Source: Alteraurantiacibacter aquimixticola (GTDB lineage: Bacteria > Pseudomonadota > Alphaproteobacteria > Sphingomonadales > Sphingomonadaceae). Taken from it: DNA of 64,000 nt. The position numbers and the translations under genes are program-made. The stretch spans positions 186,001-250,000 of the forward strand of contig NZ_SSHH01000001.1 of NCBI RefSeq assembly GCF_004965515.1. Reading direction: 5' to 3'. A model generated the notes under the pieces. The model saw nothing but the letters and a program-made list of their open reading frames with translations, was not told the DNA's origin and made no database searches. Of the stretch, positions 51,982 through 64,000 are shown one piece after another (positions within the stretch are counted from its first letter, which is position 1; each line of letters begins with the position of its first letter).

Positions 51982-53559
51982 ATGACGCAATTCGATCCCG
52001 GTGAACACCTTCCGCAACCGCCCAGCGACCAGAGCCTGCGCAGGGTGCTGGTGGTGGGCGGAGGCTCGTCCGGCTGGATGGCTGCGACCATGCTGGCGAC
52101 CACGCTGTCGAAGGATATCTCGGTGGAGCTGGTCGAAAGCGAAGCGATCGGCATTGTCGGCGTAGGCGAGGCGACGATCCCGCCGATGCAGAAGTTCAAC
52201 CACTTCGTGAAGCTGGACGAGGCTGCCTTCATGGCGGCGACGCAAGGCACCTTCAAACTGGGGATCGAGTTCCACAATTGGGGCCGTAAGGGCGACCGCT
52301 ATCTCCACCAGTTCGGCGCGGTGGGGCGCGAGATCGATGCGCTGGTGAAGCTGCATCACTGGTGGCTGCTGGGACGACTGGCGGCAGCTCAGGATGGCAG
52401 GCCCTACCCGCAATTCCAGGAGCTTTACGTTGCCCAGGCCGCCGCGCGCGAAAACCGCTTCGCGCCCGCCGGACGGCCGAAGGACCAGCTGCCCAACCGC
52501 TATACCCATGCCTATCACTTCGATGCGCATCTCTATGCCCGGCACCTGCGCTCGGTAGCCGAGGAACGCGGCGCGGTGCGTCACGAAGGGCGCATCACCG
52601 ATGTCGAACGCGACGGCGAAAGCGGGTTCGTCTCCGCCGTGGTGCTGGAAGATGGGCGGCGGCTGGAGGCCGACCTGTTCATCGATTGCTCGGGTTTCCG
52701 CAGCCTGCTGCTGGGCGGCGCGCTGGAGGAGGAGTGGGACGACTGGAGCCGCTACATCCCCTCCGACCGCGCTCTGGCGGTCCCAAGCAAGCGGCCCGAC
52801 GGCGATATCCGGCCCTATACGCAGGGCATCGCGCATTCCGTTGGCTGGCAGTGGCGTATCCCGCTGCAGCACCGCACCGGCAATGGCCATGTCTTCGCCA
52901 GCGCCTTTTCATCCGAAAGCGAGGCGGAAGAACGGCTGCTGGCAACGATAGAGGGCGAAGCGCTCGATACGCCGCGGCTGATCAAGTTCCGGACCGGGCG
53001 GCGCAAGCGCGCATGGGTGAAGAACGTCGTCGGGCTCGGTCTTTCCAGCGGCTTCCTCGAACCGCTCGAATCCACCTCGATCCATTTCGTGCAGTCCGCG
53101 CTCGAACGGCTGGTCGACTATTTCCCCACGCGGGCAATGGACCCGGCGCTGGCGGAGGCTTTCAATCGCCGCACCGAGCAGGAATGGCTCGACGTGCGCG
53201 ACTTCATCGTGGCGCATTACCATTTGTCGGAACGCGAGGATTCCGAGTTCTGGCGCTACACGCGCAATATGGCGATCCCCGACAGCCTCGCCCATGTGCT
53301 CGACGTGTGGCGGGCGCGCGGCATCCTCGACATTTCGGGCGGGCATCTGTTCCAGCTCGGCAGCTGGTCCTCCATGCTGATCGGCCAGCGCTGCCTGCCG
53401 GGCGGGGTCCATGCGCTCGCCGACAGGGCTGACCCGGCATATGCGGCGCAGGCCGTGCGCCGGATCGCGGACGAGTGTCGCACGGCAGCCTCGCGCCTGC
53501 CCAAGCACGCCGATTTCATTGCCGGCTATTGCGCCGCGCAGCCGATGGAAATGGCCTGA
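51982..53559 (+). CDS. Flavin-dependent tryptophan halogenase
   Basis: 525 residues of the PrnA/RebH type. FAD motif GGGSSGWMAATMLAT, the following GVGEATIPP, the catalytic Lys region TFKLGIEF near residue 90, and the WxWxIP motif GWQWRIP of this halogenase class (vs. monooxygenases) are all present. It should use FADH2, chloride or bromide and oxygen to halogenate an indole or related substrate; a flavin reductase partner is not adjacent. No biosynthetic enzymes surround it. ATG at 51982; no strong ribosome site. It abuts the convergent GNAT gene exactly. Confidence 0.92.
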   Translation: MTQFDPGEHLPQPPSDQSLRRVLVVGGGSSGWMAATMLATTLSKDISVELVESEAIGIVGVGEATIPPMQKFNHFVKLDEAAFMAATQGTFKLGIEFHNWGRKGDRYLHQFGAVGREIDALVKLHHWWLLGRLAAAQDGRPYPQFQELYVAQAAARENRFAPAGRPKDQLPNRYTHAYHFDAHLYARHLRSVAEERGAVRHEGRITDVERDGESGFVSAVVLEDGRRLEADLFIDCSGFRSLLLGGALEEEWDDWSRYIPSDRALAVPSKRPDGDIRPYTQGIAHSVGWQWRIPLQHRTGNGHVFASAFSSESEAEERLLATIEGEALDTPRLIKFRTGRRKRAWVKNVVGLGLSSGFLEPLESTSIHFVQSALERLVDYFPTRAMDPALAEAFNRRTEQEWLDVRDFIVAHYHLSEREDSEFWRYTRNMAIPDSLAHVLDVWRARGILDISGGHLFQLGSWSSMLIGQRCLPGGVHALADRADPAYAAQAVRRIADECRTAASRLPKHADFIAGYCAAQPMEMA

Positions 53560-57777: not shown

Positions 57778-58581
57778 TTATGCCTCCGACCGGGCGCCGC
57801 CAGTGCGCGCCGGGGCGAGCAGGGCGGGGACGAGCTCGACATCGCGTTCGGCCAGCGCATCGTCGACCCCGATGGCGATATCCTCCTGCGCCACATCGTC
57901 GCGATAAGTGCCGTGGAGGTGATCCCAGATGGCGATGCCGCTGCTCCAGTTGCTGTCCATTTCGGACAAGTCCTGCGAATGGTGGATGCCGTGCATCTTC
58001 GGCGTGGTGATCACGCGGGAGAGTTTCTCGTCCAAGCCCTTTGGCAAGCGCGTGTTCGAATGGTGGAACAGCACCGAAAGCACGAAGAAGCCCTGCCACG
58101 CCTTGAGCATCTTCGGATCGACGCCGGACACGCGCACCTGCACCAGCCGCCATGGCAGGGAGATCAACATGTCGAGGAAATGGAACCTCACCGCCGTGCT
58201 CATGTCCATGTCCGGATCGACATGGTGGACGCGGTGGAAGCGCCACAGGAAAGGCACCTTGTGCGTGGCGATGTGCCAGAGATAGAAGCCGTAATCCATG
58301 GCGAGGAAAGCGGCGAGCTTGCCGATGATCCCGCCTCCCAGCGCGTGCTGCAATCCGCGCTGCTCGCTCTCATTGCGCCGTGCGATGGCCTGCGTCGCCG
58401 GGGCTTCGCTCACCATGATCATCGCCTGGCAGCCCGCCCCCATCGCGGCATTGCGGATGGTGCGCGGAAGCGGATCGCGCGTCTGTTTCCTCAGCGGGCG
58501 GCGGCGTTCGGCAAGCGCGATCGCCCCGACAATGCCGAGCGTCGCGGCGAAGCCCGCAGCCTTGAGGAATCGCGATGCCAT
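57778..58581 (-). CDS. Sterol desaturase / fatty acid hydroxylase family protein
   Basis: 267 residues, with about four membrane-embedded helices and the histidine clusters of the family: HIATH, HRVHH, FHHSN and GIHHSQ, which bind two irons. Members hydroxylate or desaturate lipids in the membrane. In Sphingomonadales related enzymes act on carotenoids, sphingolipids or hopanoids, but the target here is unknown. ATG at 58581; the long frame to 59136 is antisense to the next gene. It diverges from the glycosyltransferase gene. Confidence 0.9.
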   Translation of the reverse strand: MASRFLKAAGFAATLGIVGAIALAERRRPLRKQTRDPLPRTIRNAAMGAGCQAMIMVSEAPATQAIARRNESEQRGLQHALGGGIIGKLAAFLAMDYGFYLWHIATHKVPFLWRFHRVHHVDPDMDMSTAVRFHFLDMLISLPWRLVQVRVSGVDPKMLKAWQGFFVLSVLFHHSNTRLPKGLDEKLSRVITTPKMHGIHHSQDLSEMDSNWSSGIAIWDHLHGTYRDDVAQEDIAIGVDDALAERDVELVPALLAPARTGGARSEA

Positions 58582-58635: not shown

Positions 58636-59223
58636 ATGGCCGCCATTCCGGAACCCGTCGTCGCGCTGTTTGCGAAATATCCGCATCCCGGCAAGGCCAA
58701 GACGCGGCTGATCCCAGCGCTGGGGCCGAGCGGCGCGGCGCATGTCCATCGCCTGCTGGTGGAGCGGACCATCGCCACCATCCGCGCGAGCGGGCTTGCT
58801 TTCGACGTGTGGTTCACGGGGGCGGAGCGTGCCGACTTCGCCGAATGGCTCGGCGATGACGTGACACTGGTGGACCAGGGCGAGGGCGACTTGGGCGCGC
58901 GGCTCACCCGCGTGGGCGGACCGGCGATCCTGCTGGGCGCGGACGTGCCGGACCTTGCGCCGCGCCATCTGCGCGACGCGGCGAGCGCACTGGAGCGGCG
59001 CGATGCGGTGATCGGCCCGGCAAGCGATGGCGGATATTACCTGCTCGGCTTCAATCGCCGGCTGCCTTTCCTGTTTACCGATATGCCCTGGGGGACCGAC
59101 GCGGTTCTGGCCGAGACCTTGCAGCGCCTGTCGCAAGCTGGCGTCGAACCGGCGATGATCGACGAACTGGAGGATTGCGACCGCCCGGCCGACCTCGCCC
59201 GCTGGCCCGAATTGCTGCCCTGA
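58636..59223 (+). CDS. TIGR04282-like glycosyltransferase (arsenosugar cluster type)
   Basis: 195 residues of the DUF2064/TIGR04282 glycosyltransferase-like family, found with arsenosugar genes. It has the nucleotide-diphosphosugar fold start ALFAKYPHPGKAKTRL, the acidic LLGADVPDL (metal-binding) and PASDGGYYLLGF. It may transfer or handle a sugar in arsenosugar formation; that role is inferred from the cluster type and from arsM nearby. The stop overlaps the next start as TGATG. Confidence 0.85.
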   Translation: MAAIPEPVVALFAKYPHPGKAKTRLIPALGPSGAAHVHRLLVERTIATIRASGLAFDVWFTGAERADFAEWLGDDVTLVDQGEGDLGARLTRVGGPAILLGADVPDLAPRHLRDAASALERRDAVIGPASDGGYYLLGFNRRLPFLFTDMPWGTDAVLAETLQRLSQAGVEPAMIDELEDCDRPADLARWPELLP

Positions 59224-59945
59224 TGCGCATTTCCATCGTCATCCCGATGCTGAATGAGGAGAAGGCGCTCCCGCAGCTGGCCGAGGTGCTGGGACGGCTC
59301 GATCCCGCGCCGTTCGAGGTGCTGTGCGTCGATGGCGGGAGCGAGGATGGTTCGGTGGGCTTGGCGGAGAGCTATGGCTGGCGCGTCGTGAACAGCGCGC
59401 GGGGGCGCGGGCTTCAGATCAACACCGGGGTCGAAGCGGCGCGCGGGGAAGCGGTGCTGGTGCTCCATGCCGATACCTATCCGCCTGCCGATGCGATGCA
59501 GGTGATCGTCCAGACGCTCTCCGATCCGCGCATCGCGCTCGCCAGTTTCACGCCGGTGATCAAGGGGTCGGAGAAGACGCGTTGGGGCACCACGGCGCAT
59601 AACTGGGCGAAGACCTGGTACGCCCCGCTGCTCTTCCGGCCGCTGCTATTCTTGAGGGGGGCGCGGCTCCTGTTCGGCGACCACGGCATGTTCTTCCGCC
59701 GTCACCAGTTCCTCGATGTCGGCGGTTGCGATCCTTCCGCCAAGGTGATGGAGGAAGTGGATTTGTGCGCCAAACTGGTGGAGCTAGGCCGCGTGAAACT
59801 GGTGCCGCGCATGATCGAAACCAGCGACCGCCGCATCGCCGAATGGGGCGCGCTGAAGGCCAACTGGACCTATCTGAAAGTCGGTTTCCTCTGGGCTATG
59901 GGTGTGCGGGAGCGGCTCGAGCGTCACTATCCGGACGTGCGCTGA
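59223..59945 (+). CDS. TIGR04283-like glycosyltransferase family 2 protein
   Basis: 240 residues, GT-A family 2: N-terminal SIVIPMLNEE, DGGSEDGS (metal), LVLHADTYPP (DxD type) and GDHGMFFRR with the EVD region of the acceptor site. Matches the small GT2 proteins TIGR04283 that pair with TIGR04282. Coupled to the preceding gene by TGATG, so the two act together. Its 3' end overlaps the convergent epimerase by 50 bases. Confidence 0.87.
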   Translation: MRISIVIPMLNEEKALPQLAEVLGRLDPAPFEVLCVDGGSEDGSVGLAESYGWRVVNSARGRGLQINTGVEAARGEAVLVLHADTYPPADAMQVIVQTLSDPRIALASFTPVIKGSEKTRWGTTAHNWAKTWYAPLLFRPLLFLRGARLLFGDHGMFFRRHQFLDVGGCDPSAKVMEEVDLCAKLVELGRVKLVPRMIETSDRRIAEWGALKANWTYLKVGFLWAMGVRERLERHYPDVR

Positions 59946-60948
59946 CCGGCGGCGCAGGGAGGTATCCCGCCGCCATGCCATAGGCGATTAGCCGGTCCAT
60001 CCATTCGCTATCCGTGGGTGGGCAGGTGAGCCCGGTCAGTGCGCGCAGTTTGCGGTCATCGAACCGGGGACTGCGGGTGAAATAGCTTCCGAAAGTGGCG
60101 AGCATCCGCCCGGCCACGCGTGCTTCCATCGGCGAGAGGCTGGCGAGATCGAAATCGGCGGGAGCTACTATTTGCGGATCGGGGAAATGGGGCACGCGGG
60201 CGACGCCGTGGGCCAGCTCGGCGGAGGGTGTGGGCGTTGCCGCGACGAGGTGGAAATAGCCGCCCTGGGCCTCATCCATCCTCTCGGAAATGCGGGCAAT
60301 TCCTTCTGCGACATGGTCGATGGGAACGAGGTCGAGCGTGGAGTTTGGGTCGGCGGGGAAGGTCGTGATCTTGCCGCGCGCCATCAGGCGGAAGACATTG
60401 CAAAGCGAGGGAAAATCGCGGATCGCGCCGGTCTCTGAATGGCCCAAAGTAATCGAGGGGCGGGCGATCGCGAAGGGCACGCCGCTTGCCGCCACCAAGG
60501 CCTCGGCGCGGGCCTTGCTCGCCTCGTAATTGTTGGCGAATTGGGTGCCTTCAGGGACCGGCCCTTCCTCGATAACCCCTTGGCGAAGGCCGCAAACATA
60601 GGCGGTGGAGACGTGCGCGAACTTCGCTCCGCAAGCCTTGGCAAAGGCAAGCGCGTTGGCGGTCCCCTGCACATTGTCGCGCTCCAGCTCCTCCTCCGGC
60701 GCGTCGAACTGAAGCGAGGCTGCGCAGTGCACAACGAGGTCTAGCGCATGCCTGGCGGGGTCTAGCTCCATCAAGGGCAGGGTGACGTCGCCCGAAACCA
60801 CGCTGGCGACGGGCACATCGGCCCCATCATTGCCGCGCACCTCTTTCGTTCGGCGGACCATGGCGGTGATGTCATGTCCCCGCGCCGCCAGCCGTGCGCA
60901 AACCTCGCCGCCGATCAGCCCGGCGGCACCTGTGACCAGAATCCTCAA
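59896..60948 (-). CDS. NAD-dependent epimerase/dehydratase (extended SDR)
   Basis: 350 residues. Rossmann motif ILVTGAAGLIGGEV, then HCAASLQFD, HVSTAYVCG and the Tyr-Lys catalytic pair NNYEASKARAE (YxxxK). Acts on a sugar-nucleotide or other alcohol; the C-terminal part is long and Ala/Pro rich. A TTG start at 60948 is preferred because it gives the canonical beginning and lies 13 bases after arsM with GAGGG upstream; the ATG at 61002 would overlap arsM by 41 bases. Cotranscribed with arsM. Confidence 0.85.
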   Translation of the reverse strand: MRILVTGAAGLIGGEVCARLAARGHDITAMVRRTKEVRGNDGADVPVASVVSGDVTLPLMELDPARHALDLVVHCAASLQFDAPEEELERDNVQGTANALAFAKACGAKFAHVSTAYVCGLRQGVIEEGPVPEGTQFANNYEASKARAEALVAASGVPFAIARPSITLGHSETGAIRDFPSLCNVFRLMARGKITTFPADPNSTLDLVPIDHVAEGIARISERMDEAQGGYFHLVAATPTPSAELAHGVARVPHFPDPQIVAPADFDLASLSPMEARVAGRMLATFGSYFTRSPRFDDRKLRALTGLTCPPTDSEWMDRLIAYGMAAGYLPAPPVSARPDSDARAAPAHP

Positions 60949-60961
60949 CAGCCCAAATCCC

Positions 60962-62014
60962 TCAACAACAGGGCGCCGCTTCGCTCTTGGCCGGATTAGC
61001 ATCGCTCTGGCCGAAAGGAACGGCGGTGCCGCAACCGGGGAAGACGCCGAAATGCGTGTCGAAATTGCCGATGAATTCGAAATGCTCGGCCAGCCGAGTT
61101 TCTGCCAGCATCAGCCAGCTGTTCCCGCACACCGGGAAGATACGCCCGCGTTCGATCGCGTGGTGGTCATCGAGGTGGAACATCTGCTCCTCACCCGGCA
61201 CCGTGCCCTTGTAGATCACAGCCTGGCCGTAATCCTCGCATTGCGGTTCCAGCCCGGCGAGCTTGAACAGGCGGTAGGTGGCGGAAACGAAGGCGATCCC
61301 TTCCAGCTTCTTCGCCACTTCCGCATCGTTGATGCCCAGCACCCGGTCGGTGACGAGGCGCGGATCGGCGAAACCGGCGCGCTTGGCCAGCATGTCGAAA
61401 TCGCCCCAATAGAGCGCGCCGGACAGGCATTCGCCGTGCAGCACCGGGTCTTCCAGCAAGTGCTTTGGCACGCGGCGATCAGCATAGACGTCGGAGAAAT
61501 AGAGCTCCCCGCCCGGCTTCAGCACGCGGTGCGCGGCGCGGAAGACCGCTTCCTTGTCGGCGACGAGGTTGATCACGCAATTGGAGACGATGACGTCGAA
61601 GCTCTCCGGCTCCAGCCCCAGTTCGTCCAGCTTCTCGATATCGCCTTCCACGAAGCGGACATTGCGATATCCGAAACGTTCCGCATGCCAGTCGAGATGT
61701 TCGTTCGCCACCGCGAGCTGTTCGGGCGTGGCATCGACGCCGGTGACCGAGCCCTTCGCGCCGACCAGCTGCGCCAGCAAATACGCGTCCTGCCCGCTAC
61801 CCGATCCGAGATCGAGCACATTGCACCCCTCGATCGCCTGCGGGACTACCAGGCCGCAGCCGTAATAACGGGCCTTCACTTCCGGATGGACGTTCTTCAA
61901 CGCATCGAGAATAGCGGGCGCAGGCATTTCGAGCGTGCAGCAGGCATCGGTCCGAAGGTCCGTACTGCCTCCCAGCACCTTTCCATAATAGTCCTGCGAA
62001 TTCTGGAGATTCAT
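60962..62014 (-). CDS. arsM: Arsenite methyltransferase ArsM
   Basis: 350 residues. Transfers methyl groups from SAM to As(III), giving methylated arsenicals. The SAM motif is VLDLGSGSGQDAYLLAQLVG and NCVINL follows. The conserved As-binding Cys are seen in DACCTLE (N-terminal), YYGCGL and GECLSGA, and the protein ends in PCC. The ATG at 62014 is used. A longer frame reaching 62518 is antisense to the oxidoreductase gene. It diverges from that gene across 88 bases, which should hold both promoters; no ArsR gene is in the window. Confidence 0.94.
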   Translation of the reverse strand: MNLQNSQDYYGKVLGGSTDLRTDACCTLEMPAPAILDALKNVHPEVKARYYGCGLVVPQAIEGCNVLDLGSGSGQDAYLLAQLVGAKGSVTGVDATPEQLAVANEHLDWHAERFGYRNVRFVEGDIEKLDELGLEPESFDVIVSNCVINLVADKEAVFRAAHRVLKPGGELYFSDVYADRRVPKHLLEDPVLHGECLSGALYWGDFDMLAKRAGFADPRLVTDRVLGINDAEVAKKLEGIAFVSATYRLFKLAGLEPQCEDYGQAVIYKGTVPGEEQMFHLDDHHAIERGRIFPVCGNSWLMLAETRLAEHFEFIGNFDTHFGVFPGCGTAVPFGQSDANPAKSEAAPCC

Positions 62015-62102
62015 GAAACTACCTGTCCCTTCGGGTCGAATGGCTTGATCATAGACAGGAATATTGTCGCTTGGCAGCGCTTTTCGGTTACCGTGGGGAC
62101 CA

Positions 62103-63518
62103 ATGGAATATTCGCATGACGTGATCGTGATCGGCGGCGGTGCTGCGGGATTGACCGCCGCGGGCGGCTGCGCGCTGTTCGGCCTCAAGGTCGCGCTGAT
62201 CGAGAAGGGCGCGATGGGGGGCGAATGCCTCAATAATGGCTGCGTTCCATCGAAGGCGCTGATCGCTTCCGCGCGCCGAGCCGCCGAAGCGCGCGAGGAG
62301 AAGCGGCTGGGCGTGCAACTGGCCGCGCCGCAGGTCGACTGGATGGGCGTGCATGGCCACATCCACGCAGCCATCGCCGCCATCGCCCCGCATGATTCAC
62401 AGGAGCGTTTCGAGGAGATGGGCTGTGAGGTGCTGCGTGACCATGCCACCTTGCGGGACCGGCACACGGTGGAGGTTGCGGGTCGCAAGCTGACCGCACC
62501 ACGCATCGTCATCGCCACCGGCTCCGAGCCTTTCGTGCCGCCGATCGAGGGGATCGATAGCGTCCCTTATCTCACCAATGAGAACCTGTTCGAGCTGACC
62601 GAACAGCCGAGGCACCTTGTCATCATCGGTGGCGGCGTGATCGGCATGGAAATGGGTCAGAGCTTCCGCCGCCTCGGCAGCGAAGTGACCATCATCAATC
62701 CCGGCCCGCTGATGGGGCGAGACGATCCGGACTCGGTCGCCGTCGTGCAGGCACAGATGGAGCGCGAAGGCGTGCGCTTTGTCGATGGCAAGGCGGCCAA
62801 GGTTGCAGGCAGCTCCGGCACCATCACCGTCACCACTGATGGCGGGGAAACGCTCACCGGCTCGCACCTGCTCGTCGCCGTCGGCCGCAAGGCGCGCACT
62901 TCCGGGTATGGGCTGGAGGAGCTGGGTATCGAACTGGGCCGCAACGGCATCAAGGTCGATGCGCGCCGCCGGACGTCCATCAAGAACATCTACGCCATCG
63001 GCGATTGCCGAGAGGGGCCGCGCCTCACCCATGTCTCGGGCTATGAAGGCTCCAACGTCGTGCTCGAAATCGCCACCGGCCTGCCGACCAAGGTGGACTG
63101 GAAGGCGCTGCCCTGGTGCACCTATACCGATCCCGAAGTCGCCCAGATCGGCATGACCGAGGCCGAGGCGCGGGAGAAGCATGGCGAGGCTGTGACGGTG
63201 GTGCGCGAGGATTTCGACCACAATGACCGCGCTGTCTCGGAAGGCGAGATTGCGGGCCACATGAAGCTGGTAATGAAGGGCAAGAAGGTCATTGGCGCCA
63301 GCATTGTCGGCCATAATGCGGGCGAGTTGTTGCTGCCGCTGACGCAGGCGATCACGGGCAAGAGCAGCAGTTTCGCGCTTGGTGGTGCGGTGATCGCCTA
63401 TCCCACCCGTTCGGAAATCACCAAGGCGCTGGCCTTCAAGACATGGGAGCCGACCGTCTTCGGTTCGCTGCCCAAGAGCTATGCGCGGTTCGTCTCGAAA
63501 CTGAGGAAACTGTTCTGA
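62103..63518 (+). CDS. MerA-like FAD disulfide oxidoreductase
   Basis: 471 residues of the pyridine nucleotide-disulfide oxidoreductase class I. FAD motif VIGGGAAGLTAA, the redox-active pair CLNNGCVPSKA, NAD motif IIGGGVIGMEMG, GDCREGPRLTH and the C-terminal dimerisation domain. It lacks the N-terminal HMA domain and the terminal Cys pair of mercuric reductase, and resembles the dihydrolipoyl-dehydrogenase-like proteins found in arsenic clusters. It might reduce an arsenic or thiol intermediate. Stop overlaps the next start as TGATG. Confidence 0.9.
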   Translation: MEYSHDVIVIGGGAAGLTAAGGCALFGLKVALIEKGAMGGECLNNGCVPSKALIASARRAAEAREEKRLGVQLAAPQVDWMGVHGHIHAAIAAIAPHDSQERFEEMGCEVLRDHATLRDRHTVEVAGRKLTAPRIVIATGSEPFVPPIEGIDSVPYLTNENLFELTEQPRHLVIIGGGVIGMEMGQSFRRLGSEVTIINPGPLMGRDDPDSVAVVQAQMEREGVRFVDGKAAKVAGSSGTITVTTDGGETLTGSHLLVAVGRKARTSGYGLEELGIELGRNGIKVDARRRTSIKNIYAIGDCREGPRLTHVSGYEGSNVVLEIATGLPTKVDWKALPWCTYTDPEVAQIGMTEAEAREKHGEAVTVVREDFDHNDRAVSEGEIAGHMKLVMKGKKVIGASIVGHNAGELLLPLTQAITGKSSSFALGGAVIAYPTRSEITKALAFKTWEPTVFGSLPKSYARFVSKLRKLF

Positions 63519-64000
63519 TGGCGAGCCGCGTGAAGAGCCGCAACGTGCCCACGGGACCATCGCCTTTCGCGATTCCGGACAAGGTGCCTCTGAAGCGCGA
63601 GAAGTTTGCCGATCCGGCGGTGACGGCGGATGGCTCTCCGCGCGCATCGGTGGCGCTGGATCACCTCGAAACGCTGTGGCTCAACACCGGCACGCTCTGC
63701 AATCTCGCCTGCGCCAGCTGCTATATCGAAAGCTCGCCCACCAATGATGCGCTGGTCTATCTGAGCGCCGAGGACGCGGCGAGCTTCTATGACGAGATTG
63801 CCGCGTCCGGCCAGCATGTGCGCGAGATCGGCTTCACCGGCGGCGAGCCTTTCATGAACCCGGCCTTCTTGCGGATGCTGGAGGACGCGTTGGACCGCGG
63901 ACATGAGGTGCTGGTGCTGACCAATGCGATGAAGCCCATGCGGCGGCATGAGGCGGCGCTGCTGGCCCTGCGCGAGCGGTTCGGGGATCGGCTTACCCTG
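63518..64000 (+). CDS. Radical SAM protein, 3' end outside the window
   Basis: 161 residues visible; the gene runs off the right edge. The [4Fe-4S] motif is CNLACASC (CxxxCxxC) near residue 66, after LETLWLNTGTL, and then YIESSPTNDA; the SAM-binding Gly-Gly-Glu is GFTGGEPFMNP, followed by VLVLTNAMKPM. It is coupled to the oxidoreductase by TGATG. In arsenosugar clusters the radical SAM enzyme ArsS joins dimethylated arsenic to the 5'-deoxyadenosyl group, but the residues around this cluster motif do not look like the ArsS pattern I know, so I do not name it arsS. Confidence 0.88.
   Translation, partial: MASRVKSRNVPTGPSPFAIPDKVPLKREKFADPAVTADGSPRASVALDHLETLWLNTGTLCNLACASCYIESSPTNDALVYLSAEDAASFYDEIAASGQHVREIGFTGGEPFMNPAFLRMLEDALDRGHEVLVLTNAMKPMRRHEAALLALRERFGDRLTL

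Follow-up and report, generated by a model that had tools for sequence, protein, structure and literature searches.

We examined a 64,000-nucleotide stretch of the genome of the alphaproteobacterium Alteraurantiacibacter aquimixticola (the window; C1:186001-250000, where C1 is contig NZ_SSHH01000001.1 of a 3.43-Mb, five-contig genome), which at its right-hand end carries a gene cluster of the type that makes arsenosugars with the enzymes ArsM and ArsS. An earlier interpretation made from the letters alone (the sequence-only reading) had described an arsenosugar-type locus with a radical S-adenosylmethionine (SAM) enzyme unlike ArsS. Our analysis bears out both the locus type and the distinction from ArsS, and the gene context favours an ArsS role for the enzyme. 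We propose, with a probability of roughly 55%, that this is an alphaproteobacterial form of the arsenosugar-type cluster in which a distantly related radical SAM enzyme replaces ArsS.

Gene content of the cluster

The genes are referred to by the short names FAH, GT82, GT83, EPI, ArsM, FAD and rSAM. The rSAM gene is cut by the window end, with its stop at C1:250513 (64513 in window numbering), and is complete in L003, the sequence that runs past the window.

57778..58581, minus strand: FAH, fatty-acid-hydroxylase/sterol-desaturase-like protein (PF04116, 82.9 bits; start codon picked by eye)
58636..59223, plus strand: GT82, TIGR04282 (DUF2064) protein, CofC-like (TIGR04282, 181.6 bits, cut-off 134)
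59223..59945, plus strand: GT83, TIGR04283 family-2 glycosyltransferase (TIGR04283, 171.9 bits, cut-off 182)
59896..60948, minus strand: EPI, extended short-chain dehydrogenase/reductase-type reductase/epimerase (PF07993, NAD_binding_4, 121 bits; PF01370, Epimerase, 81 bits; TTG start picked by eye)
60962..62014, minus strand: ArsM (5evj, E 7.9e-104; NF008823, 170.5 bits, cut-off 263)
62015..62102, no strand: intergenic region of 88 bp between the divergent ArsM and FAD genes (from gene coordinates)
62103..63518, plus strand: FAD, MerA/Lpd-like pyridine nucleotide-disulphide oxidoreductase (NF004991, 385.7 bits, cut-off 620)
63518..64000, ending at 64513, plus strand: rSAM, residues 1-161 of 331 in the window (PF04055, 48.3 bits; L003 6519-7514)

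All six genes of the sequence-only reading, from GT82 to rSAM, are present, and FAH, divergent from GT82, is a likely member beyond that list. The TGATG couplings ascribed to the cluster are real for GT82/GT83 (59221-59225) and FAD/rSAM (63516-63520) and do not extend to the rest of the set; the ArsM-EPI gap is about 13 bases, with no such coupling. EPI and GT83 are convergent with a 50-base overlap, and the set comprises more than one operon, ArsM and EPI being divergent from FAD and rSAM across the 88 bp. Downstream (3') of rSAM lie a DUF2147 gene, a tRNA-Gln and an LptG-like gene (the last named by eye), and inspection by eye of the 12 kb past the window revealed no ArsS, arsR, DUF547 or TMEM64-type gene.

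The defining arrangement of an arsenosugar-type cluster, TIGR04282 and TIGR04283 proteins adjoining ArsM and a radical SAM gene, is found here; the GT83 match spans positions 1-220 of the 221-position TIGR04283 profile, yet falls 10 bits under the cut-off. GT82 has a secondary match to CofC (TIGR03552, 36.6 bits). In the best solved relative of ArsM, 5evj, cysteines align to C25, C53, C146 and C196, which we take to be the conserved cysteines of solved arsenite methyltransferases. Although under the cut-offs of both NF008823 and NF038099, the window ArsM is, on this sequence evidence, a real arsenite methyltransferase homologue with four conserved cysteines. The flavoprotein FAD, a PRK06370-type protein, contains a CX4C pair (C42/C47), and its best NCBIfam family, NF004991, is also that of the ArsS-linked flavoprotein of locus L162. 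MerA was rejected as its identity: it scores 311 bits on the mercuric reductase model TIGR02053 (cut-off 454), and the C-terminal cysteine pair that is the hallmark of MerA is absent, the last cysteine being at 339 of 471. A mercury operon was rejected as well, there being no cysteine near the C-terminus of FAD and no mer genes seen by eye among the flanking open reading frames.

The radical SAM protein compared with ArsS

The rSAM protein carries the CX3CX2C motif CNLACASC followed by YIESSPTND, exactly as had been read from the sequence, and C61, C65 and C68 of this motif are kept in 125 of 125 relatives. On the ArsS model TIGR04167, which is listed as a selenoprotein family in the accessible text of PMC13188914, it scores 57.6 bits against a cut-off of 300, with a match to the core only (profile positions 5-154 of 303), and DUF3641 (PF12345) gives no match at E<=1. 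The ArsS of locus L162, used as positive control, scores 445.7 bits on TIGR04167 and 184.8 bits on DUF3641. Since the TIGR04167 score is far below the cut-off and DUF3641 is absent, rSAM is not ArsS as judged by these models, and the same two observations rule it out as an ArsS orthologue. A second, full ArsS elsewhere was ruled out by a genome-wide TIGR04167 search (E<=0.001), which returned only rSAM itself (57.7 bits) and one 23.9-bit match. The outcomes that could have overturned the sequence-only reading were a TIGR04167-positive rSAM, an ArsS further right and a lack of co-occurrence among relatives; none was observed. Of all NCBIfam families ArsS is the second-best for rSAM, which lies above the cut-off of none.

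For profile comparison, duplicates and lengths outside 280-419 were dropped, reducing the rSAM family from 153 to 125 members and the ArsS family from 34 to 32. Nine cysteines are invariant in the 125 rSAMs, namely the radical SAM triad and C256, C269, C289, C318, C322 and C329. The 32 ArsS proteins have five C-terminal cysteines (ending H-C-x2-C-x7-C) and two more, C105 and C135 (numbering of the L114 ArsS). Local comparison of the two profiles gives an E-value of 8.6e-14 over the radical SAM core only. In the global alignment five of the six C-terminal invariant cysteines of rSAM pair with the five of ArsS, and C256 is the extra invariant cysteine of rSAM relative to ArsS. For the C-terminal halves as wholes, these alignments are only suggestive of homology.

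An AlphaFold model from a 40-row alignment was made for a relative (L034, 84% identical to its nearest alignment partner) and not for the window's own protein. It has a radical SAM fold (mean predicted local distance difference test score 88.7, predicted template modelling score 0.88), and its closest solved folds are BlsE (Z 18.6) and SkfB (Z 18.5), with SuiB and anSME also among them (range Z 16.6-18.6) at sequence identities of 13-18 percent. The structural neighbours listed indicate the general type only; the lack of an ArsS entry among them excludes nothing. A second cluster bound by the C-terminus of rSAM is plausible.

Conservation and co-occurrence in relatives

At E<=1e-60, 80 of 170 genomes from the phylum carry ArsS, and all 80 lie outside the window's class. 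We compared the genes within about 7 kb of ArsS in 22 loci (20 hand-picked from the 80 phylum loci and two from the class), using as queries the window proteins and three proteins of L162/L163, which miss distant forms. Near ArsS were found ArsM (10 loci), FAD (8), TVP38 (6), GT82 (5), GT83 (4), MTAP (4) and the hydroxylase (1). Three of the fullest arrangements are ArsM-GT82-GT83-FAD-TVP38-ArsS-MTAP (L221), GT82-TVP38-FAD-ArsS-MTAP-GT83 (L162) and hydroxylase-ArsS-GT83-GT82 (L223). In the complete or near-complete loci L221 and L162 the genes are those of the window cluster, except that ArsS stands where rSAM would be.

Loci around rSAM were drawn from one scan of species genomes, from which the best 80 named relatives were used, with near relatives over-represented; the counts are tblastn matches (E<=1e-6) of window genes at any position in the loci, which differ in length, and some of the matches are to distant paralogues. 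All relatives listed are Alphaproteobacteria by title, with genus names that we presume to belong to that class, except one Latescibacterota metagenome-assembled genome (MAG). The closest titled relatives among the matches listed are Alphaproteobacteria/Altererythrobacter MAGs, followed by Aurantiacibacter isolates. The rSAM on the contig labelled Candidatus Latescibacterota (L108) is 64 percent identical to the alphaproteobacterial protein, pointing to a binning error or a transfer.

Within the best 80 loci, matches were obtained to FAD in 66, GT82 in 65, GT83 in 59, EPI in 57, ArsM in 40, FAH in 30 and MTAP in 20. The window gene order is kept in many of them, and FAH stands beside GT82 in most of the 30 loci that match it. 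In Qipengyuania loci (e.g. L045, L050, L058) EPI and FAD face each other without an intervening ArsM gene. Locus L175 reads rSAM-ArsM-TVP38-FAD with FAH-GT82-GT83 on the other strand. In the 20 loci with MTAP, the identity of which was checked for one, the gene follows rSAM on the opposite strand, within 351 bases in 13 loci and at most 2.5 kb away. The epimerase that the sequence-only reading had placed directly behind arsM is real, and with the window protein as query it was found near ArsS in 0 of 22 loci. Since EPI is real and accompanies rSAM, the product may be a modified one.

The distribution of these genes was further assessed in 246 genomes of the window's order and 190 of its class, with Fisher tests not corrected for relatedness (TIGR04283 at E<=1e-30 in the class and >110 bits in the order; ArsM at E<=1e-30 in the order; NF008823 at E<=1e-25 in the class; ArsS at E<=1e-40). 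In the class, rSAM occurs in 54/190 genomes and TIGR04283 in 72/190, the latter in 53 of the 54 genomes with rSAM versus 19 of the 136 without (Fisher 1.2e-29, kinship ignored). In the order, rSAM occurs in 73/246 genomes and strong TIGR04283 in 77/246, that is, in 70 of 73 genomes with rSAM versus 7 of 173 without. In the class the two genes often sit on separate contigs or are separated by hundreds of kilobases, and linkage alone therefore does not account for their co-occurrence. Both are missing together from G097 in genus g1 and from G065 and G074 in genus g6; within the window's family the pairing fails in G226 and G245, which have TIGR04283 and no rSAM. Window-type ArsM occurs in 44/246 order genomes, 43 of them with rSAM, and ArsS in 0/246 order and 2/190 class genomes, none shared with rSAM. 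The co-occurrence in relatives that the sequence-only reading had named as a check is thus strong.

Of the 19 class genomes with TIGR04283 and no rSAM, two have ArsS; in the other 17, searches at these thresholds detected neither of the two radical SAM enzymes. In the loci fetched from the 17 (e.g. L164-L174), TIGR04283 has a TIGR04282-like neighbour in 11 of 11, and these two proteins may work there with a third partner or be put to another use.

Proposed role and known systems

According to the accessible text of PMC8552651, SsArsM and SsArsS perform the first steps of arsenosugar biosynthesis, and that of PMC12159101 (citing Cheng 2021) ascribes the adenosylation of arsenic in this pathway to a radical SAM enzyme. 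Because rSAM shares its gene context with ArsS loci, we infer that it does the ArsS step; by analogy, it is probably the arsenic-adenosylating enzyme in the ArsS slot. The gene identities, their conservation and co-occurrence, and the position of rSAM in the ArsS slot rest on computed data. The cluster type is known. No description of the radical SAM protein that occupies the ArsS slot was found in the literature searched; subscription journals were mostly outside this search, so that its empty result is weak evidence.

By analogy with the known pathway, ArsM would methylate arsenite to dimethylarsenite, with FAD perhaps holding arsenic or a dithiol in the reduced state, which is a guess. The rSAM protein would then cleave SAM and join the 5'-deoxyadenosyl radical to arsenic, as in ArsS. 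An MTAP-type phosphorylase, which has one match in the genome, outside the cluster at C1:545446, could remove adenine to give dimethylarsinoyl-ribose phosphate. The CofC-like TIGR04282 protein may activate this compound as a nucleotide sugar, and the TIGR04283 glycosyltransferase would transfer it to an acceptor, yielding an arsenosugar or arsenosugar lipid; EPI and FAH might tailor the sugar, acceptor or lipid, again a guess. All of these reaction steps, as well as the arsenic substrate of rSAM and the final product, we infer.

A number of observations weigh against this role. At the protein level they include the missing DUF3641 and the best NCBIfam family of rSAM, which is not ArsS but the Rv1681 family (NF049973; 84.3 bits against a cut-off of 380, residues 52-227). 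When compared alone, the C-terminal halves of rSAM and ArsS align only at the last motif, over the final 16 columns (E 0.0011 with a probability of 20%); a global run of these halves found nothing. The equivalents of ArsS C105 and C135 in the 125 rSAMs are T/S135 and mostly H167, and the last ten residues of the L034 model, which hold the last cysteine, are of low confidence. At the locus level, the full set is an exception around ArsS too (GT82 in 5/22 loci, GT83 and MTAP in 4/22 each), and rSAM stands without other window genes in 5 of the 70 full-size loci among the best 80 and in 12 of 20 further class loci, physical linkage to the cluster being mainly a feature of the order. Neighbours common to the lone-rSAM loci (MetZ-, ApaG-, FolE- and TrkH-like, by eye) look like housekeeping genes and give no clue.

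A further point concerns ArsM, which is not obligatory for rSAM. Window-type ArsM is missing from 30 of 73 rSAM genomes in the order, genus g6 having 12 genomes with rSAM and 2 with ArsM. In the class, the NF008823 type is found in 22/190 genomes, 17 of them shared with rSAM (several of the 17 by partial matches), and is missing from 37 of 54 rSAM genomes. We considered whether ArsM had moved elsewhere in the ArsM-less relatives and did not find it, either at E<=1e-30 in the order or with NF038099, which gave weak, partial matches in 7 of 66 genomes (27 order and 37 class rSAM genomes without ArsM and the two with ArsS; G078, G111 and G113 were omitted as incomplete). The ArsM-less rSAM genomes may obtain methylated arsenic from outside, use another methyltransferase, or have a core with a non-arsenic substrate.

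Frames of about 330-450 amino acids that match only the second half of the ArsM models were observed with NF008823 (G254, G260, G303, G341, G370, G382, G387) and with NF038099 (G015, G021, G045, G048, G060, G083, G089). They may belong to another family of ArsM-like methyltransferases, as yet unnamed, that is present in rSAM genomes.

A wider and more tentative proposal is that rSAM, TIGR04282 and TIGR04283 form, across the class, a second type of radical bond-forming module in which rSAM has taken the place of ArsS, with a product that would be a different organoarsenical, or free of arsenic in the ArsM-less genomes; the 'arsenosugar' label of TIGR04282/04283 would then be too narrow.

Somewhat unlikely, in our estimate, is a core that is not specific to arsenic at all and builds a 5'-deoxyadenosine- or other radical-derived glycoconjugate from another substrate, ArsM being an optional graft that feeds in arsenic in some lineages. 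Such a core is consistent with the persistence of rSAM and TIGR04283 in the genomes without recognisable ArsM, with the nine invariant cysteines, intact in all 10 ArsM-less loci of the alignment, and with the matches to EPI, FAD and rSAM in the absence of ArsM in 20 of the 70 full-size loci. However, neither of the two class genomes that carry true ArsS has an ArsM by the NF008823 and NF038099 searches; the ArsM puzzle therefore belongs to the module and not to rSAM alone, and absence of ArsM is by itself no argument against arsenic chemistry. Within the order, moreover, window-type ArsM hardly occurs outside rSAM genomes (43/44 have rSAM), and methylated arsenic could reach the bacteria from outside.

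Less probable still is the proposal of the sequence-only reading that the product is a new organoarsenical, either because rSAM makes another carbon-arsenic bond than ArsS (in its attachment or in the SAM-derived group) or because EPI remodels the sugar. The replacement of C105 and C135, the extra C256, and the presence of EPI near rSAM (57/80) but not ArsS (0/22) are in its favour, but the remaining genes are the arsenosugar set, and MTAP near rSAM in 20 of the best 80 loci fits a 5'-substituted adenosine product, a point tempered by the ability of MTAP to remove the 5'-deoxyadenosine that radical SAM enzymes release as a by-product. That rSAM, as a SPASM/Twitch-type enzyme, belongs to another pathway (e.g. 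peptide or small-molecule modification) and adjoins arsenic genes by chance is very improbable: the BlsE-, SkfB-, SuiB- and anSME-like predicted fold, the Rv1681 family match and the 12 of 20 class loci with rSAM alone would suit it, but rSAM shares its neighbours with ArsS and co-occurs almost perfectly with TIGR04283 in the 190 class genomes even when unlinked. Synteny and co-occurrence in relatives rule out a chance neighbourhood.

If rSAM does replace ArsS, sugar-linked arsenic synthesis would reach beyond ArsS carriers, to roughly one in four of the alphaproteobacterial genomes sampled (54/190), and a radical SAM family so far without a name could be given a role in carbon-arsenic bond formation. 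The ArsM-less genomes pose the question of whether they use methylarsenic made by others or run the pathway for something else.

Beyond the cluster, a full-length tryptophan-halogenase-type flavoprotein (PF04820, 563 bits) is encoded about 4 kb upstream, at window positions 51982-53559 on the plus strand. About 6 kb downstream, on the minus strand, is a TonB-dependent receptor (L003 13912-17871; C1:256911-260870) with an STN match below cut-off (23.3 bits), preceded by FecR-like and extracytoplasmic function (ECF)-sigma-like genes (by eye), a possible cell-surface signalling uptake set.

Among known systems, the ArsM/ArsS pathway of Synechocystis (SsArsM and SsArsS) is alike in that ArsM, TIGR04282, TIGR04283, the flavoprotein family, TVP38 and MTAP are neighbours of both ArsS and rSAM, with the hydroxylase near ArsS once, and the radical SAM core of ArsS is related to that of rSAM. 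It differs in that rSAM reaches 57 of 300 bits, is without DUF3641 and C105/C135, and is accompanied by the extra EPI. The Rv1681 family provides the best NCBIfam model for rSAM (84 bits), which is far under the cut-off of 380 and matches over residues 52-227 only. We know of no arsenic link for this family, and no literature naming both Rv1681 and arsenic was found in a search that left subscription journals mostly outside. SPASM/Twitch enzymes, as we would class BlsE, SkfB, SuiB and anSME, resemble rSAM in overall predicted fold and in a cysteine-rich C-terminal extension, but they act on other substrates and are 13-18 percent identical to the rSAM relative modelled. In the ArsQML arsinothricin cluster, ArsM likewise adjoins a radical SAM gene with CX3CX2C (PMC8552651, accessible text). 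That cluster differs from the present one in comprising three genes, with an efflux permease, and in the predicted activity of its radical SAM enzyme ArsL, the transfer of a 3-amino-3-carboxypropyl group (PMC8552651); on the model for the arsinothricin ArsM, the window ArsM reaches 143 of 500 bits.

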